A DNA stretch of 64,000 bases, taken from the NCBI GenBank assembly GCA_964036195.1, contig OZ038454.1:2852001-2916000 (forward strand), written 5' to 3'. A program made the translations under genes and the position numbers. Below the pieces are notes generated by a model, which searched no databases, was not told where the DNA came from, and saw only the letters and a list, made by a program, of their open reading frames with translations. Positions 5,056 through 58,847 of this stretch are shown piece after piece. The stretch's first letter is position 1; each line of letters begins with the position of its first letter. The stretch is from Sphaerolaimus hirsutus. Its lineage: Eukaryota > Nematoda > Chromadorea > Monhysterida > Sphaerolaimidae.

Positions 5056-6736
5056 GCAGTTACCCCTGCCATTTTTTGTCTCATGGTAAAATGGTCGGTA
5101 TTCAAGTTTTAGGACAGCATTGCTCTTATAAATACTTCAAAGTAAGTCCATGATAGTGAAAGCTATGTTTTGTCTATAATACTCTTGTTGGATGTGTTCT
5201 GTCAGATGTCTTCTTCTCAACATGTTGCACAAATGTTGAACATTGTGAATTTTAGCATTGGTAGTCAATTACCCAAATACCCAGGTATTACGGGTAAATG
5301 TAAATACATTTTGGCAACTCTGGGAAATACCCCCTTCTCTGTACCCATAGTAAATCTTCAGAGTATTTGTGTTGACATTATCATAGAATCATATGCCATC
5401 TCTCTAGCCAAAGCTGAGTTGTACAGCCAAAGGCACTATTCTGGGATTAACTTATTGCCTGCATGAAATGAACTTTGCCATTTTCTAAATATTTCAATAT
5501 TTTTAACATGAAATATTAAGAAAAGAGTTTTTATTTACCTAGCAGTATAGTTCAATGCATATACATCAAAAATCTACTGGTTTCATGAAGCAAATCAATC
5601 ATCATTTGTCTTATATTCTTTTTCTCAATAAAGTAGATACATAAAATACTAGGTGTCACAGCCAGGAATGTGATCAATCCAACATAATGTTTCTTGAACC
5701 CAACTTTTTGAACAAAAAAATCACCACTTTGAAAATTTCAGTGGCATTTTACCTACTTTGAAACTCAAAAAGCCGCTAATTAAGAATGAAATGTTTTATG
5801 TGCAAATAATGGATGTGAGAAGTAGTAGCAAATGACCAAATTTCTATCTTATAAACTATAAAAATATTACCTACAAAAATGCCCATCCATATAACAACAT
5901 TAGTCATGATATTTTAGTATTTCACAGTTTTTGGAGTGGACCATTTTTATCAAATAAACCATTTAATAATCAATTTTACAATCAAATGTGCACTGCCACC
6001 TAAAAAAATATCCTCACATTTTGCAGGATGGCAGGAATAGGATACCCGAGGAAAAAACCAATGCAAATTCACCTTACAACTATATATGACTACTTCACAC
6101 ACCAAAGTACATCGTCATTCAACCCTGCAATACCACAAATGCTTCACGTTAAACTAAAACGGATCAATTCCTTCAAACGGCTCAGAGATTGCGCACTTGC
6201 CGACGTTATTTTCACGATCATTTCTGGCGCTGCCGCCGGCAGAACACCGCACAGAGTTGGTTATGTAAATATTACCATATTTCTAATAAAAGGGCGCCCC
6301 TCTAATTTCTTTCGTGAACTTTTCTATCCCCTTTTCTATTCGAGATGTTACTGTGTTAGAAGAAATACGGTAAATATCATTATGTCGGTGCACACTAGTT
6401 TACTTATTACACTTTTTACAACAAATTTAGGAAATTTAGTCAACTCAGAAATCCGCTTAGAAAACCTTGGGTTTTAAGGGTTTCAGATTCCTAGCAATAC
6501 TTCATTTTCACAGTAACTTTTCATGAACGGCAGTTTGCAAGGAATAGAAAATTTGTTTAAAATCTGTCACTTGACAGGATGCGTTTTTGTCATATGTCAA
6601 CCGGTTTGACAAACACACCTCATGTTGTTTCGCTGTGCATACCATTGACAAAATATCTGGGAGATTTAGATATATCTATTTAAAAAATATCAGAAAATTT
6701 TTTCGCAAGCGTCTTCTCAACTGAATTTCGATGCAG
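5056..6736. other. No supported gene; possible isolated exon near 6027-6264
   Basis: 5056-6026 is AT-rich with no motif I recognise. An open stretch on the plus strand starts after an acceptor-like ttttgcag at about 6026 and ends near a gtaaat at about 6264. It encodes about 79 residues with no recognisable domain, so it is only a weak exon candidate. Near 6270-6373 there is a degenerate MITE end (agaagaaatacggtaaat). Confidence 0.3.
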
Positions 6737-6885
6737 AGGGCACTCCCAGACCCTGTAAAAAGCCCTGTGAAATGTCAAATGTCATGCAAAGTGTCAAAAT
6801 TTTACCGGGCATTTTACATGACTTTCGACACTTTGCATGACATTAGACATTTTACAGGGCTTTTTACAGGGTCTGGGACTGGCAC
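6737..6885. mobile_element. GTGCC/GCCCC MITE family, CAG target duplication
   Basis: The ends are GGGCACTCCCAGACCCTG and CAGGGTCTGGGACTGGCAC, inverted relative to each other. It is flanked by CAG at 6734-6736 (plus one extra A) and CAG at 6886-6888. The core consists of aaatgtcaaatgtcatg-type repeats. On the minus strand it begins with GTGCC. Confidence 0.8.
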
Positions 6886-6925
6886 CAGGTGTCAATCAAG
6901 TATTTTATCACGCCAAAATCCACAG

Positions 6926-7712: not shown

Positions 7713-7861
7713 GTGCCACTTTCAGACCCTGTAAAATGCCCTGTAAAATTTCAAAGTGTCAAAAGTCATGGAACATGCCCTGCAGGGCATTTTCCATGAC
7801 TTTTGACACTGCATGACATTTGACATTTTACAGGGCATTTTACGGGGTCTGGGAGTGCCCC
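7713..7861. mobile_element. GTGCC/GCCCC MITE family copy
   Basis: It begins GTGCCACTTTCAGACCCTG and ends CGGGGTCTGGGAGTGCCCC. It is preceded by CTG (7710-7712) and followed by CAG (7862-7864), so one trinucleotide has changed at its middle base. In plus orientation the insertion has GT at one border and CAG at the other. Confidence 0.75.
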
Positions 7862-8374
7862 CAGTTGAGTGAGCTGTGGAAGTTACCAACCATACCTTCG
7901 AGTGACGTTCCCCCCACTTTCAAAATTTTGTTTCCTCAGTTTGTGCATAAAATATTTATGAAGGAATAATAATTATTATTATTCACATAGAGGGGGGGGC
8001 TATTTCGAGGTTATTTAAATGGGTGTTTAAAAAAAGTTTAGAAAAGAAGAAAATTAAAAAACTACATCTCTGTAAAAGTAGAAAAAAATAAAAGATGTTT
8101 TTATATTGCTGAATATTCCGAAATTATAATTGGAAATTGCATCAGATCGAGGTATACTCATTTTTACATTTAAAATGTGAAAAAAATATATCACAAATCA
8201 ATGGAATATCCCATTGCGTGCATTTTGCCAACCTTCAAGAGAATGTCCACCCTTCTCTGACCCTCATCCTGCGATTATAAAAATTACATTTTTGTGATCT
8301 TCTGAATATATTTTTCTATACACCATGACTAGGTAGTGGCAGAAAAACATCCGAAAGGAAAGAGCGCCGCCCTC

Positions 8375-19109: not shown

Positions 19110-22100
19110 TCAAGCATTATGAGCTGTTTTAAGTTTCTTGACAGCCTTGGAATGCCTATGTCCAGGTGCCAATTTTTTCACAGATTTTTTCACATCTCTT
19201 TTTTCATGTGAAGTGCCAGATGTGCTAGCCATGTCACTCTCAATGATCTGCAATTCAAAAAGCTCAGGCAAGCCCACATCTGTTTGTGTGCCTTGATCAG
19301 TATGTGTTTTCTTCAGGACAAAATTGATGGCAGAGTCAGATAGCCTGGTTTTGGGGGGGGAGGGGGAGGGGGGAATAAGTTTTGAATAATAGTGATGCAA
19401 AAGAATAAAAATGAGGAAAATGTGAGAACCTCATTTGCAATTTATCAGTTTGTTGACATTCTTTGGGTATTGTTGCATGAGGTCTTTTATATGTAGGACA
19501 TGAACTGGACACCTTTTTTTCTCCATGCACAGGGTCTATATTGCGCCAGTTAAAACTGAGAAATGGAATCATTTCCTGGGGAATACAGAGTGGTTCATGA
19601 CTGTAGCAGCCTGTGCATACCAGGTATGGTATGTGCAACATGAATCTTTTATTTTTGTTTTCAGTGCAATATCGGCAGCTGTATGTAAAAGAACATGTAT
19701 GTATGCATGCATGTATGTATTTTAGGTGGAAAAATAAGGTATTTTTAACTGACACATGTAAAATGTCTCCATCATTTGTGGTTATGCATTGTTCTTTCAG
19801 TGCATAATGTTTGAAGTTTTCCAATGTTTCACAGTTTTTGAAGTGCTGAGCAAACTGTTCCTCACTTATTGTGGTAAACACTTTGTCAGCCCACCCAGCC
19901 ACTGTTTTTGGCATGTCCCCTGAACAAATTCATATGCATAAATGACATTTATTCATTCAAAAGCAAATAAAGTGGTCCCCAAAGCACTCACTTTTCAGGA
20001 ATTCAGAGTTTTGATATAGACGGCACCTTTTGGCCTTGTCGACATTATCCTCCTTGTGTTTTGCTCCATCTTTACGGTGTGCCGGGTGCAATTGAGAAAA
20101 ATCCATGTAAAATGGAATTTTGGCCTTGTCGCCGGTAGCCGTGATGCCATGATTTGTAGAAATGTAGTCTAACGGAACGGAATGAATTTCTGTTGGGAGG
20201 TTTTACCAATTTTCGCCAGTGTAATGTAATGCATGGAAGTGTCAGAGCATGTATAAGGCAAAATCAAATGTGTATTACTGACTAAATTGATCGTGGAAAA
20301 ACTTTTTCAGCACTGTGGTGAGTACACATTGAATTTGATTCGATGTGAGTACCACTGAGAGATGTTTCATGAAACCATTTGGGATGCAGACATGTATTTC
20401 AGGTTCTGAGAATCGCCAGTCAATTGTATATACCTGAATGAAGTGCATCCTTATTTAATGTTTACACTTCTTCTAATGTACATGCATGCATACATAAACA
20501 CATACCTCGATTTCTGTGTGATAGTCATTGAACTTTAGGGTCAATTTTTGTGTTTCAGGGCACACAGAGGCAATTATTGTGATAAAGTTGTACACTGCAC
20601 TTTTGAGAGAAAAATCCGTGAATTTGATCGACTTGGATGGCAGGGCTTGCATGAGTTTTTTGTTGTATACATTCAGAGAGACATTCAGGGGGCAGTCCCA
20701 AGCCTTGTAAAGTGTAAAGTAAAGTGTCAAATGTAAAGTCAAATGCAAAGTAAAGTGTCAATCAAAACAAAAAAGATTTTATTACGGAACTTTACATAGT
20801 AATTGACATTTTATTTTACATTTGACACTTTACTTTACACTTTACAGGACTTGGGATTGGCACCAGGGATGTCATTGCGATAATATTTGCGACGTGACGT
20901 GATATTTGTGAAGTGTTACCCTAAACTTTGAGGTTGTGAAATGGTAAAAAGTATGCAAATAATAAAATTGAAGTTTGAATTTGGTGATTACGTCTCAATT
21001 ATCATAATGTTTACATAAATGCAAATTGAAAATGAAAACCTGTATTACAAGCAGAATAAGGTAAATGTAAGTAAAATACGGCAGTAGTGAGTAAAAATCA
21101 AAATAAAACCGGAATCACAAACAGAGTGGGGATAAATGCGAAAAATGTAAATATGGCGCGCAAAATATGGCAGGCGAGAACACGTGAACACGCAAGGTCA
21201 CACCTTCCTTCTTAATACCTTACTACTGGAAAATTTCTACCATATTTCAGCGAATTATTTGGATGTTTTCAAGATAAATCAGTACGAGAGTAGAGTATCA
21301 GGTTCACTGAGTATATTGCAAATATATGAAATGCATAGAATGTGCCACAAAAACGTTTGCAAAATATGATTGGTTTGCAACTTGAAAATTGGAAAAGAAA
21401 TTTGAGTTGATATGCTTGCTATGTAGGGGGGGAAAAACGTAAACGGAATGCAAAGAAAAAATAAGACAGTTTATGATAAAACAGTAAAATAAAAAAATGT
21501 ATCGTATTTCCTCAAAGTACCCCCCGGGTTATCCCCCCGGGTTACCCCCCGGATTACCCCTTTCAATGTTTTAATGTAACACAGTGAATGTTTTGAACGT
21601 CTGTTGTGCATTTCCATGACTACAAAATCACCATGTCCTTTTTGAGTGGGGGTATTTTGAGGGGGAAAGGGGGGTATTTCGAGGAAATACGGTAGCTGTA
21701 AAACGTAAATGCGGAAAAATGTGTAAAACATATCATACAAATAAAAACATCTAAATGCGACAGAATACCGAAAAGTGGTTGATCTAAACTGTATGCACGG
21801 CGCATGTATGCGTGTATTCATTGCGAAGGGAGGCAAGGCACTAACTAGTGATAGAAAAAACGTTTTTTAAATGAAGTTTTTTAGATTGCTGATTTTTGCC
21901 TAATATTGTACTATATTTACTACTGTAATGATTGGTAAATTCATTAATTAGTTGTGAATGCATTTTATGTGCTAGAAATGAAGTATGAAAAGAGGAAAAT
22001 TGCTAAAAATATTTCTTCAAGTTTTTAAAAAATGTTTTTTTAAATTTGAGTATAAAAATGTAAATATGCGTCAAAATATGATAGAAAACGGTTATCGAAA

Positions 22101-25067
22101 ACGAAAAGTTTTTTACCTTATTTTTATTTTTTAAAAATGAACAAAACATTTTTTATTATCACTAGTATAGTAGATACGTGCAAATGTGTAGCCGAATGTT
22201 TTTCGTTTTACGTGTCTGGATTTTGCTCGCTCAGAGTGTTCAATGTTTACTCTCTAGAAATGTACAAGATTGCAAAAGGGATGGAAAGTTGAAGTTGAAC
22301 CCAGGGGGCATGTTTTTAGCGGCGTACCTGTAATCTTTAATTGAGTAAACATTGCTACCGATTTTGCAATTTTAGTCAAATGTTTGCGATATTTTGAAAA
22401 TCCAGATGCGTATTTCGGAAAATAATTGGTAAAATAACTGGAAATTTTAAAATCTGAGCAACTGAAGTTTTAAAAAACCGGTAGCCATATCAAGCCTAGG
22501 AATTTTCCAATTAGTGGGTGGCTACTTAATGCAACGCGGGGCACCCCAAACGGCACTCAGTTTTCAGCGATCCCAAAGCAGCCACATTTTCGTCATCCAG
22601 AGATACGGGGGTCGAACATTTCTGAGACACAAACATAGTCATAGTCATTTNNNNNNNNNNNNNNNNNNNNNNNNNNNNNNNNNNNNNNNNNNNNNNNNNN
22701 NNNNNNNNNNNNNNNNNNNNNNNNNNNNNNNNNNNNNNNNNNNNNNNNNNNNNNNNNNNNNNNNNNNNNNNNNNNNNNNNNNNNNNNNNNNNNNNNNNNN
22801 NNNNNNNNNNNNNNNNNNNNNNNNNNNNNNNNNNNNNNNNNNNNNNNNNNCTATAGAGAAAAAGATTTTTTATTACTTTGAAAAAGTGTTCCATTTGAAA
22901 AAAAGTTACATGAAAATCAGTCATTGTCTGTCTAAAGTTTTTGGTATTCAATTCCAACAGTGATGCCATGTGAACATTTTCTCCAGTCATATTGTTTCTG
23001 ATATCATTTGTAATTTTGTTCACTGCATTTTCCACCAGTGTGGCAAACTTTTCATGGGTTTTCTGCATGGTATTTAAATATGCCTTTTTTCACACATAAT
23101 TATAGAAAAATAAAAGGTAAGTATGTACATACCATGAACTGTGCATCCAGATTGGAACATGATACTTTCTGAGTGTCCAGATATTTTTTGACACTTTCCA
23201 AGGGTGCAGATGACTTTGTTGCAGGTGGGCATGTCAAATTTTTTTCATTGAGAGTCTCCATTTTGGTCAATATTATGCCCAGATTCGAACATGAGCATGA
23301 CATGTTTTGAGCACCAAGATATTGTTTCACATTTTCCAAAATTGTTGATGACTTTATTACATTTGGGCATGTAAGGTTTTGATTCTGAATTAGTTTTTCC
23401 ATTTTAGTCAAAATGGTGGCATCATGCTGGGGGCAGTCCCAAGCCCTGTAAAGTGTAAAGTAAAGTGTCAAATGTAAAGTCAAATGCAATGTCAAGTGTC
23501 AATCAAAACAAAAAGAAAAGATTTTATTACTTGAACTTTACATGACAATTGACACTTTATTTTGCATTTGACTTTACATTTGACACTTTACTTTACACTT
23601 TACAGGGCTTGGGATTGGCACCTGTTCTGCTTCTTTTACTGCTGTTTTATCTGAAGCCAAAATCATGCTCTGTATCATTGCAATATCATTTTCATGTATT
23701 TGACATGTGACATGTTTGTCATTGATGTTTTCCTGCATTCATAGGAAACATTGCAAGCACACTCCCCCCATGTTTGTGAAAGTGAAAGTTGATAAAAAAA
23801 ACCCTACCGCTTTCGACATTGTCACGGTGTCAGAAGGCTGAGTGCGCAGGTATTCAATGTCAAATACTGCACTCGTGGTGATTGGTCCAGTTGTAGTTTT
23901 GACATTGTCAGTGATGGTGCTCGGTTTGATTGGTGTTGTTGTACTTTGTGGAATAGTGAATAATTCTGCAAAATCAGTTATCGTGTACCACTTTGTGCTT
24001 GCCGCCGCCGCCGCCGTTGTAGTTTCCAGCGTCGTACATTCCACTTCAATTTTGGGGCCAAGCCTGTAAAAAATAAATATACCTATTTAGAAATACGTAT
24101 TTAGAATAGCATTCATTGAAATATCCCCCCCCCCCCTCCCACAAAGTGAAACGACAAGTGAATTGACAAAAGTTAAATTAAAAAAATAAGAAGACATAAT
24201 TTTTTATAATACGTTTTTTGTCATTTCACTTGTCAATTCACTTACCATTTCACTTCGCATTTAAGTGTTTACTTTAACTTTGCCGTTTCACTTCTCACTT
24301 CTCATTTTGTGGAACTGATATCAGGTAAATGCGATAGATATAAGCTTGGCAATTACAAGTTGAAGTGTTTCGAAATATCAAAATACACACCCATTTCCTC
24401 TCATTATTTATATGGAATGCTTTTCGTAAAAAGTTGAATACTTTTCAATATTTTCAAAATTATAAAGGTTTTACCTGGGTGCCAAGTCATCAGCCAGATT
24501 GCAGTATTTGCCAGGTAAAATAAGTTTTTTTCCCTTATTCCACTGATAAAGTATGTCGTTCTGAAAAGTGAGAGGGGTCTGTTGAGAGGAATTATAACCG
24601 TATTTCTGCGAATAGAAGGGCCATCTTGTCGTTTTTTCTTCAAAATTAATTCACTAATATTCGCTAATAATTTTTGATTTTTGGTGTATATATTTGGCAT
24701 AATTATTCTAACAATTTAAATGCCTTTTATCGGAGATTGTCATTTTACCGTATCACCTTGAATTATCCCCCCCTTTTTCCATTGAATTGAATTAATTTAC
24801 AAAAAATTGTTGCCAAAATAATAAATCGCACTCTCTAATAACTTTTTTCGCTTCTCAAATTAGCACCCTTAAATTTTGTTGAAAGAAAAAATCCATCCCC
24901 GTGGGGGTATTTCTAGGTAATACGGTATTTAGTTTGTACCGAAATAAAGCCAGAAAGTGTACAGAAGGTGTACAGTGCACAGTCAGAATAAAAAAAAGTT
25001 ACAAAATTACCATGTCCACGTGAGCCAAATCTGCCTGCGAACAGTCGATTGCGTGAGAAGTATCCAT
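19110..25067 (-). CDS. Multi-exon gene of unknown function with a CxxC zinc-ribbon-like region
   Basis: Starts at ATG 25067 and stops at TGA 19110-19112. Exons, minus strand, with phases that agree at each checked junction: 25067-25011, 24560-24475, 24063-23808, 23732-23622, 23426-23133, 23062 into the N gap (22850), then, after an unread part, about 20680-20506, 20433-20283, 20189-19992, 19919-19754, 19678-19430 and 19344-19110. The N-terminal part is Thr/Ala-rich (TTTAAAAAS). A middle region has two similar blocks around ILTKMEKL and ILTKMETL, each followed by LTCP. The exon at 19678 carries CRYC and VCTGC, a possible zinc ribbon, followed by CYSHEPLC. The C-terminus is Lys-rich. I do not recognise the family, and a host gene or a domesticated transposon are both possible. 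The 23622/23426 junction is occupied by a MITE acting as the intron. The part between the gap and 20.7 kb is unresolved. Confidence 0.65.
20689..20863. mobile_element. GTGCC/GCCCC MITE family, CAG target duplication, inside the 19.1-25.1 kb gene
   Basis: The ends GGGGCAGTCCCAAGCCTTG and CAAGTCCTGTAAAGTG-type (inverted) finish in GATTGGCAC. CAG is duplicated at 20686-20688 and 20864-20866. On the gene's strand the borders read CTG|GTGCC...GCCCC|CTG, so unlike the copy at 23.4 kb it lacks a terminal AG. It abuts or overlaps the start of the exon ending at 20506, whose 5' border I could not fix. Confidence 0.8.
20867..22650. other. No exon recognised; C-tract MITE at 21500-21694
   Basis: Presumably intronic to the 19.1-25.1 kb gene. 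21500-21694 has ends gtatcgtatttcctcaaag and gtatttcgaggaaatacggt with C and G tracts. The rest is AT-rich with no supported coding exon, although exons next to the assembly gap could be missing. Confidence 0.5.
22651..22850. other. Assembly gap of exactly 200 N
   Basis: 200 consecutive unknown bases interrupt the gene on the minus strand. ORFs that appear to run through it are artefacts. Confidence 0.99.
23430..23621. mobile_element. GTGCC/GCCCC MITE forming a complete intron (introner-like)
   Basis: On the minus strand the exon ends ...GAACAG at 23622. The element begins GTGCCAATCCCAAGCCC and ends GGGCTTGGGACTGCCCC. CAG (23429-23427) follows and then the next exon, CATGATGCC. The intron is 23621-23427: the 192-bp element plus one copy of the duplicated CAG. 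Both flanking exons are phase 0 and continue the same coding style, so precise removal leaves the frame intact. The TIRs continue through taaagtgtaaagtaaagtgt. This is what is expected if insertion into a CAG created a GT...AG intron. Confidence 0.85.
24120..24330. mobile_element. Short palindromic element (cacaaagtgaaacgacaag type) in an intron
   Basis: cacaaagtgaaacgacaagtg near 24139 is inverted as cacttctcactt...ttgtg near 24295-24313. A long internal arm (gaattgacaaaag / gtcaattcacttac) allows a hairpin. The right end ggaactgatatcag resembles GTGCC-family ends but is diverged. It lies in the intron between the exons ending at 24475 and starting at 24063. Confidence 0.5.
24746..24927. mobile_element. 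C-tract MITE in intron 1 of the minus-strand gene
   Basis: The ends taccgtatcaccttgaatta and tatttctaggtaatacggta are inverted. C runs occur at 24768 and G runs at 24902. A solo end-like aaccgtatttctgcgaatag also occurs at 24597. Confidence 0.65.
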
Positions 25068-36909: not shown

Positions 36910-37184
36910 GGCACTACGACGACGTTTGCCAGAAGCAGCCAGCTTTGATCAATTAGAGACAACTATATTTTTTTAATTATATATATACACACATTTTCAA
37001 AAAGTATTTTCAGCTGCAATTACACGCAGTGATTGTATGTAATCACAATGAACTGTAACAAGTACAAAAACATGTCATGCGGGGAGTTTATTTTAAACAG
37101 TAACAACGTTAACAGCAATAAATTTAATAATAATAATAATAATAATAACAAGGTGTAATGTAATCAACAATAAACAGGCATTTT

Positions 37185-39727
37185 TTAAATCCAGTCTGCA
37201 TCAACGGTACCATTTGAATCTGAGCCAGTCAATGCACACTTTGCAAAAACAAGACCATTAACGCGAAACGGTCGACCCCAGTGATTGTACAGCGCTAGTT
37301 TGAGCCCTTTTTCACAGCCGCTTGTTGGTGTCTGAGTAGTGTAGTTTACTGAAAGATAGTTTTTAATCAGTAGAAAAAACAAATAAACAAAAGAAATAGA
37401 CATACCTGCTTTAGTTGAACAAAATGTGGCACCTGTGGTTCATATACATATGTGCGACGTGAATTTAACCATGCATTTGTGCCGCTGTCTGGAGTATGCA
37501 GTGCAGGCTTCCATGTGAAAACAGATAATAATGGAGCCTCTTCAGATTGGAATACAGCACATGTGGATTCTACACTGTCGCATCGCACTTGAACACGCCG
37601 ACGTAAATCCAACTGATGTGGTACTGTTGCATAGATGCGCCTTGTATCACTGCTAAAACCATACTGAATGTTGCTGGAATCTAGCCAATCAATTTGGTTG
37701 GCTGGTACATTGCTAGCTACGGTGACAAAACCCAATTCCGCTGCCAAGTTTTCACTGAGGTACATTCTGGTCACAAGGTTTGGATCTGGATTCTTGATTG
37801 CAAATCGTCGCACACCAATTAACGACGGAGTCTCATAGCTTGCCTCAAATGCCAGTGTTTCTATGCGTGCTGCATCTCCAACTAGTGGCCCGTGGTCTAA
37901 TATCATGTCTGCAACTACGATGCTGGCGTCGCTCATGAGCATTTTATCGTGTCTTCTCAGTGTCTGTCTCAATTTTTTCATCACCCAATAATCGAATGTT
38001 GACGTGGTCACATCAGATAGCCATGCACTAGGCATTTGATATCCATTTCCAACAAGAATTTGTTTCACTTTGAAAAGACCTTCATTCATTTCTTCTACAT
38101 TATTGATCAAGTTTGCATTTGCCAATAATCGCTGTTTGCCATTCACCATCATTTGTCTTTTATCTTTAATTTGTCTTTTTGTTCTTGTCAATAGTGGTGA
38201 ATTACTACCTTGATCAGCACCATTCTGAAATAATGGTGGAGTTGGTGGAAGTGTATCGATACTTGCATTACTAAAATTACTATAGTCACCAACCATATCG
38301 TCATCATGCAAGTAGTCATATGCACTGTCGATAAAATCTGTTCCCTCCTCGAAAACATCATTACTCTCATCATAAACATAATCGTCAACAATATTGACAT
38401 CACTATTGTCACTCTGTCTGTCATTTATGGCTTTGCCGTTACCACTGTTGGACCCCCACTGGGTGTCGCCTGCATACTCCCACTCGGCATTGTCACGCTG
38501 CCTGTTGCTACCATAGTGTTGCCCTGGCTTGCCTGTTTCTGTTGTTGCTGCTTTGCTGTTGATTGTGACAGTTGTGTCACTGCCGTTTTCGCTGCCGCCA
38601 TTTTCGCCACTAATTGATTGTTCCTCGGTCGTGGATACTTCCATGTCGTGAAGTGGGACAGTTTCGAGCTGCTCCCCAGAGGTTCGTTTCTCAGGTTTGG
38701 ACAGATTCGTCGATTCATTCTGCCCGCCCCCGCTGTTAACGGCGGTTTTTTTCTCTTGTTTTGTACCATTTCTTTCTTTTTTCTCCCCTTTGTTGTTCCC
38801 CCCATTGATGACGTTGGCATTATCGACATTGGCATGGGATTTGTCATTTGATTTGGATTTGACATGTCCAACATTTGACCCATTTTTGGCAGAAACGCCA
38901 TTCTCGTTGTTGATGGTTGATGTCGTTGAAGGCTCATTATGCCGAGGCCTTTTCTCGTGGCCACCAATGACAGACCTTTTTTGTTGTTGTTCCTTGTCCT
39001 TTTTACTTTTGACTTTGTTTGCGCCATCCTGCAGCCAATTCATAAAACCTGGCTCTAATCGTGACAGTAGAGCTGCAGTTGACTGATCCAATTCCTTTAG
39101 TTGATAGCCAAACTTTTCCACGCGTGCACCACCACTCAAAATGGCATTCAATTCACGTTCAACAACCTTTGCCCAATCTTCTGAACTGTTACTTTGGAAG
39201 GAAAGGACGCTCGATATATCCACTTGACACCAAACCAATGAGCCAGCACAATCAATAACAATAAAGGCCGGTGTTGTATCTTTGCCCTCAAAAACTGGAG
39301 ATCCCCACAATTCCAACTCTACGAGACTGATAAAGTCGGCACGATTTTGCAAATCTGCACAGCGTTTGAAAGTTTCTTCTAATACTACAGTACTACCATC
39401 ATCAATGCGCGACACTGGTTTTGTTGTTGTTGTCTTTGTCTTTGATCCTGTGTATATATACAGTGGTGACCACAACTACAACAAAATAGTAAAAACAGTC
39501 AAAAACAAAAAAAATGACAACTAACGCGGTGCTGTCAGTGGTGCTGGGATATTATCAACGTATTGTTCTTGCTGAGAGTAAGGCCGTGGCGACTGTTGGT
39601 GTTGATCATATGATGGAGGCGGTGGCGGTGGCGGTTGTGGAAACTTTGTGGCGAAGAAGTTTGGTGCACTTGTTCGTTCATTCCACTGTCGATCGCTACT
39701 CAGATAGACAATTTGTCGCATTTTCAA
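37185..39727 (-). CDS. Penton-like minor capsid protein (single jelly roll) with a large low-complexity insertion
   Basis: Three exons whose phases agree: 39727-39526, 39447-37406 and 37331-37185 (stop TAA). The N-terminus has YLSSDRQWNERTSAPNFFA then a proline run. Further on is a LVELELWGSP block. The C-terminal part contains YLSENLAAELGFVTV, VQVRCDSVES, APLLSVFTWKP and RTYVYEPQVPHFVQLKQ, with ALYNHWGRPFRVNGLVFA in the last exon. This pattern (LS..La..LGF, pLL..F, Y.P....f..l) is that of the Polinton minor capsid/penton protein. Between roughly residues 220 and 520 lies an Asn/Ser/Gly/Lys/Asp-rich insertion, including NGGNNKGEKKERNG and a tribasic-type TRTKRQIKDKR, that is not part of the usual jelly roll. 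It could be a surface projection or an expansion. Confidence 0.7.
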
Positions 39728-39899
39728 TGAGCTTTTTTAAATTCACCAACAAATTATCTTTCTTCCGGCAATTGTTCACTGTTGTTGTTGTTGTTGTGGT
39801 CGTAATTAGAGTAGAGAGATATAACTGGTATAATCCTGTTATTCATTATTTTCGCATTGTTAACAAAACATTGTCAAGAAAATAATAACAATAATAATA

Positions 39900-40374
39900 A
39901 CATGAAAAAATTACAAATACAACAACATTAAAGTAGAATGAAATGAGAATAACCACAGCAACGGCATCATTTTATATGCATTTTTTATTATCAACTATGC
40001 AAACATAGAGTCACACTGTCATGACAACCATCACTACCGCGCAACTAATAATAATAATAATAGTAACAGAAAAAAAATTGTATGACTCATACGTTTTCAA
40101 AATCAATCATAGTATCACCATAACCATCACCACCATCACCATAATTATAATAATAATAATAATAATAATAATTATAACTTGACTCTACCGGGGCGCATAA
40201 ATACGCAACGTCAGTCTGCACGTTTGTGGGCAGCCCCCTCCGGGGGCTGCCCACAAACGTACATCCTGAACGTTTGGTGCTTTTCCGTCCCCGCTCACTC
40301 CGGGGGCGGCGCCGCAGGCGTCGCGAGTTACGCGCGCGCGCCCCTATGATTGGTCTAGATAATAATAATAATCA

Positions 40375-40434
<60 letters not shown>

Positions 40435-40597
40435 AATTGAATCATTTTACTTTATTTGTCTGTCTGTCTGTCTATCTGTCTGTCTGTCTGTCTGTCTGCG
40501 CGTGGAGATAGTAATTACCATAATGACAATTATGGTGCAATATCATGGAATTTAAAGTGATATTTCTAACCACGTTTATTCCTTCTGTTTTTTCTCT
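39900..40597. other. Intergenic region with trinucleotide microsatellites and a GC-rich palindrome
   Basis: Contains (taa)n at 40145-40175, the GC island at 40180-40350, (att)n at 40376-40436 and a (tctg)n run at 40457-40498. No coding exon was recognised. This is the upstream region of the penton gene on the minus strand. Confidence 0.7.
40180..40350. promoter_or_regulatory. GC-rich island with a perfect 39-bp palindrome (18-bp arms)
   Basis: 40221-40259 is a perfect inverted repeat: arms cgtttgtgggcagccccc and its complement around TCC. It is followed by a CpG-dense stretch (gggggcggcgccgcaggcg, cgcgcgcgcc). A CCAAT box (attgg at about 40349) and a TATA-like tatttat on the minus strand at about 40196-40203 are arranged as expected for a minus-strand promoter reading toward the penton gene. 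The contrast with the AT-rich surroundings is sharp. A promoter or replication-related role is inferred only. Confidence 0.4.
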
Positions 40598-42569
40598 TCA
40601 ATATTTCCTCCCCCCATGATGTTCTCGTAGTCGTTGTTGTTGCCTTGTTGAAGGAGGTTGTGGCGACCTTGATTGTGACAAGTGGCGCGGTAACAACAAC
40701 GAGGTGCTCGAGCGTGGTGATGGTGATGACTTTGTACTGATGATGGCAGGGGGTTGTTTTCTTGTTGATGCTGTTGCAGCGGTGGCGACAACTGCTGTTG
40801 ACGGTGACGGCCATGGCCACTGCCTTCTTTGCCTCCGTAGCGCAGGCGGAGCATGACGATTATTGGATGGTGATGCGTGCAGTTGTTGTTGTTTCGATGA
40901 ACTCCGGGTAATAGGTGCACTATATGAGTCGTCATTTTTCCTCCTGCGGGTGCGGCTACTGTGTTGTCTGCTGCTGTCGATGGAGTTGCTGCTGTTGCTG
41001 CTATTGTGTGAGGTGGTCTTGGTGGAATTATTGGAGGGGAGGGGACTGTCGGAAGTTGTTGTTGTTGTAGTAGTATTGGCGGTAGTGATAGTGGCCTTCT
41101 TTTTGGCAAGTTGTTGTTGTTGTTGTTGTCCTTGGATAATGTCTTCCAATGATAATAGTATGGGCATTTGTTGTTGATGTTGACCATCATTTGTGTCATC
41201 ATCACCATCTGTTTATGAATAATGAGTAGTAATAATATTAATATTATAGTTGGGGAAAATAGTAACCAAATAAGTAGAAATATTATAATAATTAATGATA
41301 AAATCATTTTATTAGATTGACTCACTAATTGTTCTTGTTGTAGTTGTTGAAAACACTTGGCTAGGTGGTTTTGAACTTTGAGGTTGTGCAGCTGGAATCA
41401 ATTCCTGTCTGTAGAAACGACCTTGTAAAGGTGCTAAACTTTCATCCATAGGATCCAAAACCAAATAAGTATCTGGTTTATTGATTTGAGTAAACCGGCG
41501 CCCCAATGGAAACACTTCACGTGTATATTTCTCGCGTGCAACCAGTTTTATAGGATTACCATGACTAGGGGGCGGTCTTGAAAGTCGCACCCAACCAGTG
41601 AGCGTGGACAGACGTTCATGGGCTGTATCGGCAGCCTGCCGACTTGTTCCACTGTAGTTTGTATTTGGCTGTGCACGCCTCCGTTTGTGACGTAATTGGC
41701 GTGCAATCAATAATGCATGAGCATTTCCACTTTGCGGCTGAGATACTTCAACTGGTGCAGCTCCAAATAAAGCTCGTGTTCGAGTTGTATTCATTTGTCG
41801 CTCAATCGCTGGGAGTACATCAATCCACCGTCGATGCGGCGTTGCCATAGTGTTGTCATCATTACCGTTTTGTTTATTTGTCTTTTCAGCAACCGCAATG
41901 AAATACATTTCAAGACGTTTTCGAATGTTACGTATAAAACAGTCGAGTTTGGGTAGCCGAGTCACATCTTCAGCTGCTGGAGCAAATGTACATTTGATCT
42001 GCATTATTATTTTTTTATAATTAAATACATACATACATATATGAATAAAGAGAAAACAAACTTGATAAAGTGTTTTTTGAAAGTGTAGTGATGTAAAACA
42101 CCGATCAAAATCTGATCGCAACTTCATGGGTGCTCGACCATTGTTTCGTGCCATAATAGTCTTGAATGCTTGAGTCACTTCAACACCAGTTTTGTGCTTT
42201 AAAGCTTCGAGCCAAACTTCATTAGTAAAATCATCACAGCAAACAAAAATGTAACGATAATTGTCATTGACAGGCATATCTCGTTCTGGCATTACCATCA
42301 AATCAACAGACCAAAATCTATCAGGACCACTGACCTGCAAGGGGAAGTCAACAATGTTTAAAATTATTTTTTTTTAATAAATAAAAAATAAAAAGCTGAC
42401 TTATCAGTATTGGCAAACGTTCAAAACCGCGTCTCCATGATGGATGTCCCTTCAAATAATAGGCAGGTTCATTTAATAACACGTGTTCTTTCCACGCCTC
42501 GTTTGGAAGATTATACTGAGTACGTAACCATTTGCCGCCACCAACATTTTCAGCCCATTGTTTGTGCAT
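40598..42569 (-). CDS. Polinton integrase (retroviral-type rve core) with a Q/S/R-rich C-terminal extension
   Basis: Likely start ATG 42569. A first exon runs to about 42400 (NLPNEAWKEHV, then a HPSWRRGFERLP block), followed by 42342 to about 42062, 42000-41326 and 41208-40598. The rve core starts at FWSVDLMVM (first Asp, about 42305), then YRYIFVCCDDFT. LRSDFDRCF (about 42110) is in the place of the second Asp. LDCFIRNIRKRLEMYF (about 41930) is where VERFNRTL-like sequence with the catalytic Glu is expected. The C-terminal SH3-like part has YLVLDPMDESLAPLQGRFYRQEL, typical of Polinton integrases. A gtgagt donor at 41325 and a phase-matching acceptor at 41209 add about 200 residues rich in Gln, Ser and Arg, a possible core/DNA-binding tail. 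The enzyme inserts the element into host DNA. Third acidic residue atypical. Confidence 0.7.
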
Positions 42570-42627
42570 TGTGTTAGCACACAATTAAAAATAATTAGCT
42601 GCTGATTAATCAAAAATCATTAAAATA

Positions 42628-43892
42628 CTAATGTCCATATTGATGCTTCATGACTTCAGTAAACTGTTTTGGTACTTCCTGCTTCGCATCTGGATTACTT
42701 CTCATCAAGTATTTTCGTGGTTCACCACGTTCGGTCTCTGCTCTAGCTGCAGCTATTGCAGCTGCGTTTGCTTGACGTCTACGGTCTTTAGCGTCAGCTG
42801 CTGCTTGTTTGCGTCGTTCTGCTGCGGCTTTTTTGCGTTGCTCTGCAATGCTATCAGTCTTGCTGCTGGTACCACTACTGCTACTTTCACCTATTCCTGC
42901 TCCTTTTGATTGATGATGAGACTGTACTCGACTTGTAGTAGGTGTTGTAGCATTTTGACCCTTTTTTCTTGGTTCTTGTGATGGAGTTTCGAAATCGCCA
43001 TGAGCATCACCATCGCCACCAATGTCATCATCATCATCACTTATTACGTCTTCATCACCTGTTTCCAGTTTTTCTCCCTCAAAGTCATCCACATCTAGAT
43101 CACTATCAATTACAATTGATGGTGCTCTGTCACCATACTTGTTGTCCTTTGAATCACTTCCTGTAGCAGCGGCCGCACTTTTTTCGATTGGTTCCTGTTT
43201 TGCTATATCTCTTTCTTTTCTTAACTGTACAGTCGATTCAGAATCTGGCACTGTGCCTGCAGCTTGTGTTGAACTTTCACTTTCCTTTGCCAGTGATGAT
43301 TCAGCGTGATCTAAATACTTTTTCCAAAAGTAATTGGATCCGCTAGGGGGTGGTTCTCCACTGTCTGAACCAACAATAGAGTGATGTATTGCATCATATA
43401 TATATCCGCGCCTGGTTGTTTATTTCCTGGTATCTTGATTCTCCCTAATGGATCCAAAAGTTCTGGTGCGACAGGCTCCAAATGCTTCAGTACTTTGTCA
43501 ACTGTAGCTCTATGCTCAGGTGCAAAGCTGGCACGTATAAGTGAAGGTGAGTAAGGCAGCGGAACTGCACTCGGTGTGTGTGGTATAGGTGCACCTTGAC
43601 TTTTATCATTGATATTTTCTTGAAGTTTATGTGCCTCTTCGAGAATAGCTTCTGGTGGGATTGCTGGAATTGATGGATCGACTACTCCACGTAATTCTTT
43701 CAAATGTTGACCTTGATACTTGCGTGCTGCACCATGTAAAAAACGAGCTAATCTCTCATTATCTGTAACTGTTTGAGCATATAGGTTGGATGCATTTGCT
43801 GCATCAACTCGTACAGTTTTCACGGGTTCTTCCAATGGATTTCGAAGAACTATAGAGCCAATGACATTCTTCCTTTTAGGTATATGACTCAT
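42628..43892 (-). CDS. Structural-type hypothetical protein, broken by a frameshift at an (AT)n tract
   Basis: Two open frames on the same strand, 43892-43311 and a frame that becomes open from about 43405 to 42628, overlap in the region 43405-43311. The N-terminal half starts MSHIPKRKNVIGSIV and has a Pro-rich middle. The C-terminal half has an acidic block (DVDDFEGEKLETGDEDVISDD shortened), an Ala/Arg-rich helix (AAAERRKQAAADAKDRRR) and ends RGEPRKYLMRSNP. Near 43396-43405 there is a run of five AT dinucleotides. The frame moves there by two bases relative to the protein-like continuation. The position between integrase and ATPase genes suggests a virion or accessory protein. I could not name it. 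The break may be real decay, a polymorphic microsatellite or an assembly error. Confidence 0.5.
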
Positions 43893-44192
43893 AATTAAGG
43901 AATGTCGAAAGGGGTTGTAGTGTTAGAATGTTATTTTATTATTATTATTATTATTCGTTGATAAAACAGTAGCTGCAACAACAATAACAATCGTAATAAT
44001 AATGTTGAAATTGATTAAATCCAAAAAATAAAAAAAATAAATAAAAAAAATAAGTTTAAATTGTAGTAGACAAAAATAACAACAACAACAATTTATATAC
44101 ATACGAAACAATACAGAATGTGTCATCAAAAACATAACACATGTGTACACGTCAAAATGTAAACAACATGTAAACAGATAGTCAAATTTCAT

Positions 44193-44708
44193 CTACTTTT
44201 TGATTTTTGAGGGACGTGCATATTGCGACAAAAATGCCTTTAACACAAGTACAAGAGCTTGACCTTTAGACAAAACTAATAAAATACGACGTAAAGAATT
44301 CTCCAACATGCTGCCAGAAAGAACTGTCTTAAGCTTACGCCTATACCTTCTAAGAACTTTCTTTTGCTTTTGATTTACGTTTATTACACCGGACATCAAA
44401 TTGGCAATAATATCTTGTAAACAACGTAATGCATCTTCGGAAATTGTACTTATCATATTTCGTCGTTCCTTCACACTCGGTGTATTCGCCAATTTCTCCA
44501 GAATTAACCAGTTTCGAGACAATCTACTTGTACTTTTCCTACGCTTAACAACATCGTTTTTTCTACTACTATTGTCTCCACCGTTGTCGGCGATCTGCTG
44601 TTGCTGCTGCTGCACTTGCTGCCTGCCTAGCTGCTCCGATTGCTGTTGTGGTATATGGGGGATAGTTTTGGAATGTCCATTTTTCATTAGATGATCGTTG
44701 TTGGCCAT
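44193..44708 (-). CDS. Small basic conserved protein of the element (171 aa)
   Basis: A single open frame starting MANNDHLMKNG. A Gln-rich N-terminus is followed by a basic RRKSTSRLSRNW, then a helical LEKLANTPSVKERRNMIS, a DALRCLQDIIANLMSG helix, a strongly basic KQKKVLRRYRRKLK and a C-terminal hydrophobic GQALVLVLKAFLSQ. Animal Polintons and adintoviruses carry a small protein with this layout (KLA..S..ERR.LI / ALRCL..I..N...G / basic / hydrophobic). The role is uncertain, perhaps a core or membrane-active virion peptide. Its first 140 bases overlap the C-terminal end of the ATPase frame. Family match is from memory, so moderate confidence. Confidence 0.6.
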   Translation of the reverse strand: MANNDHLMKNGHSKTIPHIPQQQSEQLGRQQVQQQQQQIADNGGDNSSRKNDVVKRRKSTSRLSRNWLILEKLANTPSVKERRNMISTISEDALRCLQDIIANLMSGVINVNQKQKKVLRRYRRKLKTVLSGSMLENSLRRILLVLSKGQALVLVLKAFLSQYARPSKIKK

Positions 44709-46088
44709 CCTCTTCCTTTATTATTTTTTGTTCTTTGTTCTGGCGTTGTGTACGTCGTAAATTAGACCACTTTGCTTTTAATGGTCCTCCAGCTGCACAA
44801 ATATCTTTTCGAAATGACTCATCAGAATCGCAAACACGTTCAATTGCAACATCTGCAGGTACAGTGACAACTTTACGGCCAACTTTCTGTGCACGTCGTG
44901 ATAATGGAGCGAATCTTGGTAATTGATTCTTGTCTTGTTGATGGGGTCCTTCTATTTCTTGTCCTTGTTGTTTTACGTCTTGTTGTTTGGTGGTTGTGTC
45001 ACCACTAGTGCCGTCAATCCCAATGTCACTGGATAACTTTTCCCACTGATAAAAAACACGATCTTTATCCCATGGAAAAAGTGAATTTGACAATCTCAAA
45101 TCGTCAGGAATTGAAGGATCGGAATTTGCAAATAAATATCCAAAATTTTTATCTGATATAGCCTGCTTATAAGCTCCAATAAACAAAGCTGGATCTTGCC
45201 ACCTTTGTGCAAATGATTTTGTTGTCAATGCATCAGACGGGAAACTGAAAGTAATTATTTTTATTATATGTAATTGAAAAAATAAAATAAAAATATAAAG
45301 AAGAGAAAACAGTGTCACCAACCTGAACAGAACAAAGTAAACACTGGAACTGCGTGTTTGCTTCAAATTCTGTGTATGTATTTGAAAATGATGACTCTTC
45401 AAAAATAATAAATCTTTTAAATAAATAAAAATGTTGAAAAATACCTGAGTATCGAATAGACTTTGTAACGTCGCTACAAGTGATATATTATGATGACGTG
45501 CTGCACCCTGTGCCAAATCACGTAATAAGCGTGTTGGATTACTATTACTCAAACTTGTACTATTTCTCCCTTCACCCGTTGTACTTGCATTAGTGTCATC
45601 AATTTCAATTGATGATGCGACACTTGCTGAAAGATCATCCAGAACTAGTAGCAAATGTGAATTCTTTGTATTGGATCGTTCATCCAATTCATCTTTATAT
45701 CGAACAATAGTACGCCAAGAATCACAAAAGTCTTCAATTCGACCAAATTCAGCACATGACTTCAGCGCTAAATATTTTTCTTGCCAATAGCTAAAAAGAA
45801 ATAGACAATGATCTGGTGGACGATCATAAACCAATTGACGATTTTTTATCAACTCTATTAATAGAGTAGTCTTCCCGGAACAAGTTAATTTATGCAGATA
45901 ATCTTTTATCACAAAGCAATCAAGTGTTAGTGTAGTACAAGGAGTTTTTTTTTCCTCTTCTATACACTTTCTTTTTTACTTTGTAATAACAAATTATTTG
46001 CATAAATTTTTATCTGAAGATCCGAAAATTAGCATTGGAAAGGAGTGATGTAGTCTCTGCATTTTTTCTTTTCTTTCAATAATAACTC
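44569..46088 (-). CDS. FtsK/HerA-type genome-packaging ATPase (A32-like)
   Basis: Exons: about 46088-46014 (RVIIERKEKMQ...FPMLIFGSS), about 45883-45445 (SGKTTLLIELIKNRQLVYD ... LLLVLDDLSA ... HHNISLVATLQSLFDTQ), 45369-45323 and 45244-44569. Walker B is at about 45626-45660. SLVATLQSLF matches the sensor region, and FGYLFANSDPSIPDDLRLSNSLF matches the C-terminal conserved block of Polinton ATPases. Two later junctions keep phase. The C-terminus extends as an Ala/Gln/Arg-rich tail over the start of the next gene. This enzyme drives DNA packaging into the capsid. Odd: the two halves of the P-loop (FGSS and SGKTT) are about 130 bp apart and no GT-AG pair that unites them is visible, so the gene may be damaged here or use an unusual intron. 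The true 5' end is not located. Confidence 0.7.
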
Positions 46089-46267
46089 TGCAAAAATAAT
46101 TTGACCTTTTTTCACAGTAAATAAAACATGAACAGACAAATAAACAACAACAACAACAAACAAACAAATGATCAATGTAAAAAAGGTCAATAAATAACAT
46201 TCAGCCTAAATGTCCTAAATGTTCAAATCACATGCATCCATGTGCACATACATGTATGGATCACTAA

Positions 46268-48261
46268 TTAGTCACGAACACATTTTCCATGTGTTTTGAT
46301 CACTCTGCTTGGTCCATCCTGAGACATTCCTGCAAAGTATTGCCTACGATCACTTTGGCGATTCAATTCTGCTTGCGTTGGAAATAGTGACATGGATATT
46401 TCATTATTGACATCACTGCATTTCTGGCACAAATCAATGGTAATCTGTACAGGTGACATTTAACAACAACAAATGTGGAATGATGACTAATAATGATAAA
46501 CAAACATACCCGGCACCTTCCATTTATATCACGTGTACTCGGTCGATGTGATGTTACAGTGCTGAAAAGGATAGTAGTGGTAATAATAATGAAGTTTATC
46601 ATAAAATACAGTTAACAAGCATACATACCGACAGTATTCACACATTACAATTACAACAGCCTCAGTGTGTGTTAAACTAAATGGTGCACTGGCCAGTTGT
46701 GTATATTGCCCTTGGTATGGAAACTGTACATGCATCTCTTCAATGCTGGTAGAATCCATGGTTCCATATATGGAAACCTGACCTTCAAAACAGTCACGGA
46801 CCTCACAATTCAAAGTGCGGCATGGCTGTATGAAAAAAAAATAAAACAATTAGTATTATCATTATTAATGATAAAATCAATTGGAGATTGTTGACCTTGC
46901 ACATGTCAATTGTGAAAACTGTGCGCTCATTGTAATATACTTTGCCCTTTGTCCGCTGAGAAATTTCGCGACATGTTCTGCACAACCAATACACAACAGT
47001 GTGTGGTGGTTGAATTGGAAATGGTGGTCCATCAAGCATGTCTTTCTTCATGAATTGGATATCAAACAGTGTTGGGTCTCCACCTATAAATAACAAAAAT
47101 TCACCTTTTTTTATAATATAAAAAAAATCAATTATTGTAATACTAACGTGCAACTGTTGATGTATGGCCATATTTATTAATCTTTGGAATGCCACGTTCA
47201 AACTCTGTCAAGCCCACATACTTTCTACCAGCTGCTGTAGCTGTTTTTGGACCTTTGCCATCACTACCAGTGTTGATGCCATGTTTCATTATCTTTCGAG
47301 GTGGAGATTCATTCTCCTTCTGTTTTTTGGCCATTTGCTCCTTCAACTTTTCAGCAGCAGCAGCGACATCATACGCGTCATTGAATATGTCATCATCCTC
47401 ATTATTTGTGTCAGATCCCGCCGCCATATTTGAAATTGTATTTTCGGGTTCCTCATGTTCATCATCCATTTCATTGTCACTATTGATTACAATGGTCTCA
47501 CTCCACTGAGTTGCCTTTTTCATTTTTTTGTTGTCATTTTGCTCTTGACCTGATTCGTCAGCGGCTTCTTGCGAAAGTCCGACAATATCTTTTTCAAAGC
47601 GTCTTGGTTTTGATCTCTTTAACATTTGCAAATCGCTCCCAATATATTCAAATTCTTCTTCATGTTCACTCGTGTCACCCCTGAGCGGTGCCATACTCCC
47701 AGTGTCAATATCCTCTAAATCTTTCTCTTGTTCTGTCCTTTTTCGTGGTGGTGCAACTGTGGTGGCGACAGTGGTGCTTGCTGTAGTTGTTGTCCTTGTT
47801 GATGTAGTATTTGTTTTTCCACCTCGGCTTTTGTTTGTGTTACTGTTGCCAGCATTGACATCGTTGGAGTTACCTCCCTGTTCAATTTGTTTCTTGTGGA
47901 TGTTGACGGCTTCTCGGGAATTGAGATATTCTGTTTAAAAAATTATATATAAAAAATAAAACATGAAAAAAAATTAATTAGTGTAAACGAAAACGTAATG
48001 CATACCAGGGGGGGAAGATTCATAGCCAGGGGGAGATGTATCGGCGGTGGAGGACATGATGGGTATAGTCCTTGATTTGTCACGAGCAGTCCCCCCCTGT
48101 TTGCGATTTCCACCTCTCTGCGCATTTGACTTGCCACCACGTCCACCTCTGGAAGGTTTGTCAGTATTCGTGGTGTTTGATGACTGTAACACATTGGATT
48201 CTTTTCTGATATATGTATCATTTCCATCCCGGTTTTCAGGGTTTGCATGACCATCGGACAT
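46268..48261 (-). CDS. Acidic N-terminus / Cys-rich C-terminus protein, 550 aa, unknown function
   Basis: Six exons, all phase-consistent: 48261-48006, 47930-47148, 47083-46896, 46825-46629, 46561-46510 and 46444-46268. The start MSDGHANPENRDG is followed by a Gly/Arg-rich stretch (RGGRGGKSNAQRGG), a Thr-rich stretch and an acidic region (INSDNEMDDEHEEPEN). The C-terminal third carries paired cysteines: WLCRTC, MCKPC...C, VMCEYC, RCR and DLCQKC, spread over exons 3-6. They are spaced like a compound zinc-binding domain. It is located between polymerase and ATPase genes on the same strand. No family recognised. A nucleic-acid-binding or regulatory role is a guess from composition. The intact splicing and lack of stops argue that it was functional recently. 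Confidence 0.65.
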
Positions 48262-48582
48262 TCTATATAAAAAATAAAAAAACATAAGTTATATAGAAGA
48301 CATAAGTCAAATATGAAGAGTTAAAAATACAAACAAACTTTTTAAATAATCCAATTGTTTCTGGCAATTGACCAAATACCTGTACTCACTTTCTCTAATT
48401 ATCCTGACTGAATCAACTTGAAATCCTGCTACTTTCGCTGTAGAATGAGAATCAATATTGAATATTTTGAATGTTTTGATAATATATAGTTAGATGCCTG
48501 CATTTTTTTATTTTATTATTAATAGAGTATAATAATGTAAACAATAAAAAATGTAAAATACAGTATATACTCAATATAGCGA

Positions 48583-53942: not shown

Positions 53943-53950
53943 ATTTTATT

Positions 53951-56830: not shown

Positions 56831-56947
56831 TGGGGGTAGGTCGATATACTGTGTCGAATATCAAATATAATGTTTTGTATTTAGCCAATTGTGTGCCCCC
56901 GAGATAGATAGCTGTGCGATTTGGGGTGGTGCGGGACCTGTCACCTG

Positions 56948-57242
56948 GTGGCAATCCCAAGCCCTGCAAAGTGTAAAGTAAAGTGTCAAATGCAAAGTAA
57001 AGTGTCAAATGCAAAGTTAAATGTCAAATGTAAAGTGAAGTGTCAAATGTAAAGTAAAGTGTCAATCATGTATCCAAATCTTGTGTCGAAAAGTGAGATT
57101 TGAATACAAAAACATAAGATTTGGATACGAAAAATATTTGGATACACAATTGGCACTTTACTTTTTACATTTGACTTTACATTTGACACTTACTTTACAT
57201 TTGACACTTTATTTAACACTTTACAGGACTTGGAACTGCCCC
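56948..57242. mobile_element. GTGCC/GCCCC MITE family, CTG target duplication
   Basis: It begins GTGGCAATCCCAAGCCCTG and ends CAGGACTTGGAACTGCCCC. CTG flanks at 56945-56947 and 57243-57245. The arms are tandem aaagtgtcaaatgtaaagt words. A small inverted pair (tatccaaatcttgtg / aagatttggata) sits at the centre. Confidence 0.8.
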
Positions 57243-58847
57243 CTGGTTTGATCCGTCATTATTTGTCTCATCTCTCAATCCCCTCTCAGTGTACATCAGC
57301 GGGTCGCCGCAGTGCTGCGTCTTGGTGCTGCGGTCTTCGTGTCGATCAGTGCCCCGTTTTGGTGCTGTTCTGTCGCCGTTCGCTGCTGTTGCGGATTATA
57401 TACGCCTGCATGTCTACTACTACCCCCATTCGCTATGGTGAGACGACTTTGACTTGATTTGTGGTGTGTTGACACTGGGGGTGTTCTGAATTTTCACCCT
57501 CAGGGGGTTTGGGTAGGTGGTAGACGGGGGGAGGGGTTGAATGCAGGGACGTATCCAGGATTTTTGAGCGGAGGGGCTGCTTGTTAACGGGGGCCGGCGA
57601 GCGGGGGCCTAAATTTTTTTTCCCTGTATAGGGACGAGAAGGTGTTTTGGCGCTAGCGCCATACCAGAGCGCCACGCATGGCGCTATTGGCGTTGGCTCT
57701 AGCGCCAGGAACCGCTTTATATAAATGTAAATATGCACACATATGCAGCGAAAGTCGCAAACATGTGTTTATTTTCCGGGATATTTGTTTACGGGGACCG
57801 ATCCGATAAAAATACAGGATATTTGTTTACGGGGACCGATCCGATAAAAATACAATGTATGGGGAAGAAATTGCGCGCTTGTGCGCAAAATTTTTAAGAA
57901 ACATTGAAAAATGTTTAGAAAAAATTGCATTTTCCGGGACTTTTTAGGTCTCGGCCCGGGAGGGGGGCTGCAGCCCCCCCGCCCCCCCCCAGGATACGCC
58001 CCTGGTTGAATGTATGCCTTTTCAAGGTAGGGGTTGAATGTATGCCTTTCCAAGGTAGGAATAAATGGTAGTCTTTAAAAGGTAGGAATTAAAATCGAAT
58101 TAAATTTAAACACATTAGAACACCACTGTGCAAAACTTAGGTATTTAGGGTATTTAAGCACGTAGTACGAAATAGCTGAAATAGGCAATAGAACACATGA
58201 CCATGGGTAGTGATTTTGATATATAAAAGTATGACACTTAGCGAGGTAGTGATTTTGATTTATAAAAGTATGACACTTAGCGATATTGAGGCGATATTGA
58301 GTCAAAATTTGGGTAAAATTTCTAAAAATATCGCTCCAGATGCTAGATAACTGGGCGATTTGGGGGGGGGGGGCCTCTCCCACCCTTGGTTGAAACCCGG
58401 GTTGTTCTGAATTTTTGCACAGTGGTGAGTTTTGATTCGAGGGGGTGGATAGATTGTAATTCATTTTGAGAACCCGGTCCTCTACATTTTCTCTTTCGTT
58501 GAATATCCCCAATTCTCTCAGCTCGCGGGTGGGGCTCCATTCAGCACCCTGTCTTGGTGCTGTTTTGGCTCTGCAGTAGATTTGCGGCACCGCGTCCTGG
58601 TGCTGCGATGGCTGATGCGTTTGGCACCTTTTTGCTGCTCGACTATTTACGTTGGCAGTGAGCCAGGTTTTGGTCGGTGATTTCTGGGGGTGGTTTTTGT
58701 GGGGTGCGGTAGTGGGTGGATGCTTTTTATTCGTCTGCGATTATTGAAATGTGAAGTTTTAAAAATTCTATGCATAGTAGTTGACAACGACACAGATGTC
58801 AAACTGGCTCCGATCCGCTCAATTCGGTGTCGTTGATGGGGCAGGCC
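57243..58847. other. No supported gene; 'gggacgtatccagga' TIR element at ~57544-58003 and GATA-subterminal fragment at ~58340-58400
   Basis: gggacgtatccaggattttt near 57547 is inverted as aggatacgcccctg near 57990, with G/C runs and gggcctaaat / aggtctcggcccgg inside. A short direct repeat, tttacggggaccgatccgat, occurs twice (about 57788 and 57825). At 58340-58400 there is ctgggcgatttgggg, shared with 17.8 kb. 57280-57420 is open in several frames but has no recognisable product. Confidence 0.5.

Follow-up and report, generated by a model that had tools for sequence, protein, structure and literature searches.

Does the miniature transposable element lying on the minus strand at positions 23427..23621 constitute, as a sequence-only reading had proposed, a complete and frame-preserving intron of its host gene? 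The origin of new spliceosomal introns is a long-standing question and introners are rare in animals. Introns created by MITE-like elements, in which element and target both contribute to the splice sites, are reportedly found in Micromonas and Aureococcus (2016) and in Fritillaria (2019). Introners have been described as non-autonomous, TIR- and TSD-bearing, intron-forming elements that, once inserted and spliced, as a rule do not alter the length of the mRNA (PMC9860276). This 2022 survey reports them from two animal groups only and names copepods (PMC9860276). The window, i.e. the whole stretch of 64,000 nucleotides that was analysed, corresponds to C6:2852001-2916000 in a genome assembly of 348,482,957 bases.

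The window locus reads, on the minus strand, ...GCAGAACAG / GTGCCAATCCC ... GGGACTGCCCC CAG / CATGATGCC...; as had been claimed, the preceding exon part ended in CAG, the element started with GTG and a downstream CAG supplied the AG. The predicted intron (23427..23621, 195 nt, GT..AG) was composed of exactly one element and one target-site triplet, namely a palindromic MITE copy of 192 bp (23430..23621, GTGCCAATCCC...GGGACTGCCCC) followed by CAG (23427..23429), which is the right flanking triplet and the source of the putative acceptor AG. The left flanking triplet, also CAG (23622..23624), was the final codon of the upstream exon part, and it was kept at the empty site of paralogue L046 (GAT CAG / CAC). 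The two arms of the element, 75 nt each, were 92 % complementary. A short length, a long palindrome, in-frame stops and hundreds of copies are all typical of a MITE. If the element were retained, a stop would be met in frame at its codon 16, which ruled out its retention and translation. The window copy differed from a 93-copy consensus by three substitutions in 191 positions (1.6 %) and two indel events and is, by this measure, a young insertion. Because of this young age, the intact frame of the gene is little evidence on its function since the insertion.

The interrupted exon was represented by an upstream part of 37 codons (23622..23732, minus strand, ...KEAEQ) and a downstream part of 98 codons (23133..23426, minus strand, HDATILTKMEKL...DAQFM). 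Both parts were open and homologous to paralogues; their phase 0 was confirmed by sequence and the announced ILTKMEKL and ILTKMETL blocks were found downstream. The preceding exon (23808..24063, minus strand, LGPKIEVEC...MSKA) has counterparts carrying a MITE in loci L052 and L042/L043. An assembly gap of 200 N at 22651-22850 was located downstream in the host gene, the 3' part of which was thus not fully readable.

A genome search was run with the two exon parts joined (135 residues, the junction following residue 37); it returned 49 matches with E values of at most 10, with several matches per locus and the two halves of the window exon included. Of twelve loci fetched, L041 and L044 corresponded to the window, while ten (L042, L043 and L045-L052) were paralogues and were used in place of orthologues for the empty-site comparison. 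At the junction all ten loci, of which L042 and L043 were identical in this region, displayed a single open frame that was gapless and intronless. Since they read straight through, the window exon was formerly uninterrupted, and taking out precisely 195 nt brings it back to its ancestral length, which agrees with the frame preservation claimed. An intron at this site without the element was looked for in the ten paralogous loci and none had one. An old intron later invaded by the MITE was ruled out as well, as these loci were intronless there and the window intron consisted of the element alone. No homologue of the window gene was found in the protein collection at E <=10 among 1540 candidates, so far as these searches went the gene family being encountered in the present genome alone.

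The element belonged to a homogeneous multi-copy family inserted at many unrelated sites, as introners do. The window copy and 39 others, displaying 95-97 % identity, made up the 40 candidates scored, out of 1707, in the genome search. Exact left ends were counted 246 times next to CAG and 296 times next to CTG (reversed control, 0 each), i.e. at least 542 exact left ends genome-wide; together with the 39 listed copies this excluded a chance resemblance and upheld the identification as a palindromic MITE of a large family. The consensus was 192 bp long and median divergence was 2.1 %. Few of the copies examined looked exonic. The window itself harbored, as identified by sequence, another copy with CTG on both sides (20689..20863, minus strand), a longer relative also flanked by CTG on both sides (56945..57243, plus strand), a shorter relative of the GTGCCAGTCCCAGACCCTG type with CAG flanks (6735..6890, plus strand) and a further shorter relative whose GTG end adjoins CTG and whose opposite end adjoins CAG (7713..7864, plus strand).

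Flanking triplets were compared among the 40 best-scoring copies, 40 more with CAG on the left and 40 with CTG on the left (loci L001-L132). Three of the 40 CAG-left and 14 of the 40 CTG-left loci, whose right end was unrecognisable, and nine copies with altered ends were left out before counting. CWG was encountered on both sides of 87 of the 94 intact-end copies, the two triplets being identical in 58 of those 87, in a sample of which the second and third parts were picked by left triplet and in which L131 and L132, with identical flanks, were both counted. The pairs (left/right) were CAG/CAG in 36 copies, CTG/CTG in 22, CTG/CAG in 18 and CAG/CTG in 11. Left and right triplets agreed at the outer C in 90/94 copies, at the G in 92/94 and at the middle base in 62/94. 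The clean CAG duplication proposed for this locus applies to the window copy, with CAG on both sides, but not throughout the family, in which the middle base differed in 29 of the 87 copies flanked by two CWG triplets; mutation at a copy divergence of ~2 % cannot explain such differences. Preferred surroundings were A-C-CWG-G-T (94 copies), and comparison of the filled locus L125 with its empty duplicate L161 uncovered a clean CTG duplication. This CWG target-site duplication is that of NuwaI elements of the PHIS superfamily. An 8-bp duplication of hAT type was ruled out, the flanks having just the CWG triplet in common. A GT..AG frame was displayed by 54 of the 94 intact copies (36 CAG/CAG and 18 CTG/CAG). 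As GT..AG is the family default wherever the left end is GTG and the flanks are CWG, the GT..AG ends of the window copy alone are not evidence of splicing.

Two side observations concern the sampled copies. L066 and L067 (C1, 30.48 and 30.56 Mb) displayed alike flanks, with CAG as right triplet in one and CTG in the other, and perhaps represent one old insertion that was duplicated. L008 and L097 each consisted of two directly adjoining element copies with one CWG triplet in common, as though the flank of one had served as target for the other.

Four exonic cases of the window family were backed by homology: the window copy itself, L052, L072 and L113. In the window gene, L052 and L113, the copy made up the whole predicted intron and was absent from the homologues, as in introners. 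The L052 copy was located in the preceding exon (...ATC AGC TCC AG / element CAG / T ACT ATT...), which was continuous in the window gene and, over the aligned parts, in L045-L051 as well. It lay 8.4 % from the consensus, while 618 nt of the exon were still open; under neutrality such open exons had a probability of 0.17 with substitutions only and of 0.0003 with indels at the rate of the element, whose distance from the consensus may overstate its age. The L072 copy split a collagen exon (Pfam Collagen, E 5.9e-22, residues 25-83, junction at 42) and kept the Gly-X-Y register. On C2, the L113 copy (CTG / element / CAG) split a conserved exon (dN 0.18 and dS 1.09 against L156) whose paralogues L156, L158, L159 and L160 were gapless across the junction; L157 also read through the junction, with a gap and a stop near its end. 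Four of these five paralogues displayed Leu at the site, from which the L113 target was probably CTG, though the right triplet is CAG. The acceptor AG of L113 was thus probably not present in its target.

Related or different MITEs made up whole predicted introns in further paralogues of the window gene. L046 carried a related 153-bp MITE (CTG / GTGACAG...GCCTC / CAG), the exact removal of which left a single long frame, homologous to an exon that is continuous in L042. L042 and L043 carried a different palindrome of 102 bp, CAG / GTGTGAGTTCC...GGAACTAACTC / CAG, in the preceding exon and at another point than that of L052; its exact removal from L042 (revcomp 883-988) again resulted in one frame (...SKKQQ / IQSTIV...). 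The arms of this palindrome resemble an element at 62.1 kb of the window.

Other candidates were less informative. L039, L092 and L095 looked exact-ended from their open frame only, and a genome search for a paralogue of L039 matched L039 itself only. Pfam and PDB look-ups of the exonic candidates besides the collagen returned weak sub-cutoff matches or none. A codon score, for which 20 kinase exons had served as training set, missed the known exons of the window gene, L052 and L113 and is for this reason a weak test; it placed 7/58 CWG-left/CAG-right copies and 1/34 CTG-right copies above threshold in sense, a difference that was not significant with this weak score. Antisense hits were also obtained for three of the seven (L015, L066 and L123) and, in the CTG-right class, for L067. 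L125, a CTG/CTG copy located within an open frame, seemed initially to be a counter-example; compared with its near-identical empty duplicate it displayed little constraint (pN 0.047, pS 0.059, over 60 codons only). An exon of L045 harbored a related MITE whose acceptor end was flanked by CTG. Its exact removal would restore the frame, and since this end lacks an AG, splicing at terminal GT-AG sites cannot do so.

The window element quite probably represents a NuwaI-like MITE that entered an uninterrupted exon and is spliced at its exact ends in the manner of an introner. The paralogues show the insertion and the restored length; splicing at the element ends is what we infer. On this reading, a non-autonomous palindromic MITE with CWG target (PHIS superfamily, NuwaI-like) inserted at a CAG codon, its GTGCC end creating a CAG/GTG donor and the CAG at its other end providing the acceptor AG; removal of the element with one CAG leaves the protein length unchanged. 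In the pre-mRNA, the palindrome may fold into one long hairpin, bringing the terminal splice sites together and burying internal GT and AG sites, which would favour splicing at the exact ends.

Predictions of pairing and folding are consistent with this. Predicted pairing of the U1 5' end with CAG/GUGCCA amounted to -6.8 kcal/mol, against -5.1 to -8.4 kcal/mol for the donors of six further introns predicted in these genes, to which the terminal donor is thus predicted to be about equal; the CTG version reached -3.8 kcal/mol. The predicted fold of the element RNA had an energy of -112.1 kcal/mol (shuffles -43.4, sd 4.3), with both internal rival sites fully paired and the terminal triplets partly open. 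When 18 GT..AG pairs in and near the element were tried, an open frame resulted from six of them and an unchanged length from the terminal pair only. Use of an internal site is very unlikely. A donor GTAAAG located 18 nt inside the element, combined with the terminal CAG acceptor, does keep an open frame and would add six residues (VPIPSP); this donor (CCU/GUAAAG) displayed, however, a weak predicted U1 pairing of -2.4 kcal/mol, is buried in the predicted fold, and the paralogues lack extra residues there.

It is more difficult to dismiss a plain disruptive insertion, in which this gene copy was recently broken, the element being rarely or never spliced and the loss being tolerated by a large family. 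The youth of the window copy and the many paralogues speak for it, as do the exonic L045 relative without AG and the non-significant codon test. Nevertheless we regard it as unlikely, because splicing is favoured by several exonic copies that arose independently, have matching ends and lie in genes still open, one of them (L052) being well diverged and another (L113) belonging to a constrained family, and because three further paralogues (L046, L042/L043) display MITEs exactly between CWG and CAG. Removal at the DNA level, by precise transposase excision or by an elimination programmed in some parts of the body, would likewise restore the exon and would account equally for exonic copies whose acceptor end bears CTG, such as that of L045; PIF/Harbinger elements are capable of precise excision. 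This appears highly improbable, as copies were retained in the assembly and the matches of the joined-exon search included no second, element-free version of the window locus.

The splicing proposed here, by an exact-ended introner-like MITE, matches that of published introners. Recruitment of the donor from the element and of the acceptor from the target is already published for other introners: in some of them the 5' splice site belongs to the element and the 3' one is drawn from the copied target, as exemplified by Chrysochromulina (PMC9860276). Like these, the window family comprises non-autonomous TIR elements, with a putative donor from the element and a putative acceptor from the target copy; unlike them, its flank is a 3-bp CWG, most sampled copies were not evidently exonic and splicing is predicted. 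NuwaI elements of the PHIS superfamily, which occur mainly in animals, have the same CWG target triplet, in contrast to which the window family is a non-autonomous MITE whose two triplets often differ in their middle base (PMC4482050). Amoebophrya introner elements also display inverted repeats, a predicted hairpin joining the exon ends and boundary direct repeats of 3-5 nt; their introns are mostly non-canonical, while the window MITE has GT-AG ends and a nearly full-length stem (PMC7789003). At title and abstract level, no CWG-target PHIS elements tied to introners were found in the literature, PMC8476143 being the one match for introner and harbinger. Two traits are unusual with regard to known introners, namely a target rule of only 3 bp, CWG, and the switch of its middle base. 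Somewhat more doubtfully, a whole group of CWG-target MITEs, of more than one sequence family, might make introns in this genome, which is probably that of an animal, the 3-bp target rule enabling both donor and acceptor, the middle-base switch letting CTG insertions gain an acceptor, and the asymmetric tips, GT on one side and GG on the opposite one, setting the spliceable orientation. Since the family is young, numbers hundreds of copies, has paralogous sites that are still empty and follows a simple rule as to the insertions open to splicing, donor and acceptor recruitment, the role of the hairpin and the cost of new introns could be studied copy by copy.

Elsewhere in the window, the region of about 37000-54000 (minus strand) had by eye the appearance of a Maverick/Polinton-type element with introns; the only Pfam match there was the integrase core PF00665 (E 1.9e-8, ORF 41312-42373). 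An autonomous partner with the ends of the window MITE was not among the three DDE_Tnp_4 loci read, out of 163 matches in the genome. More than 100 of these matches were nearly equal in score and length, so that a DDE transposon looks recently amplified.
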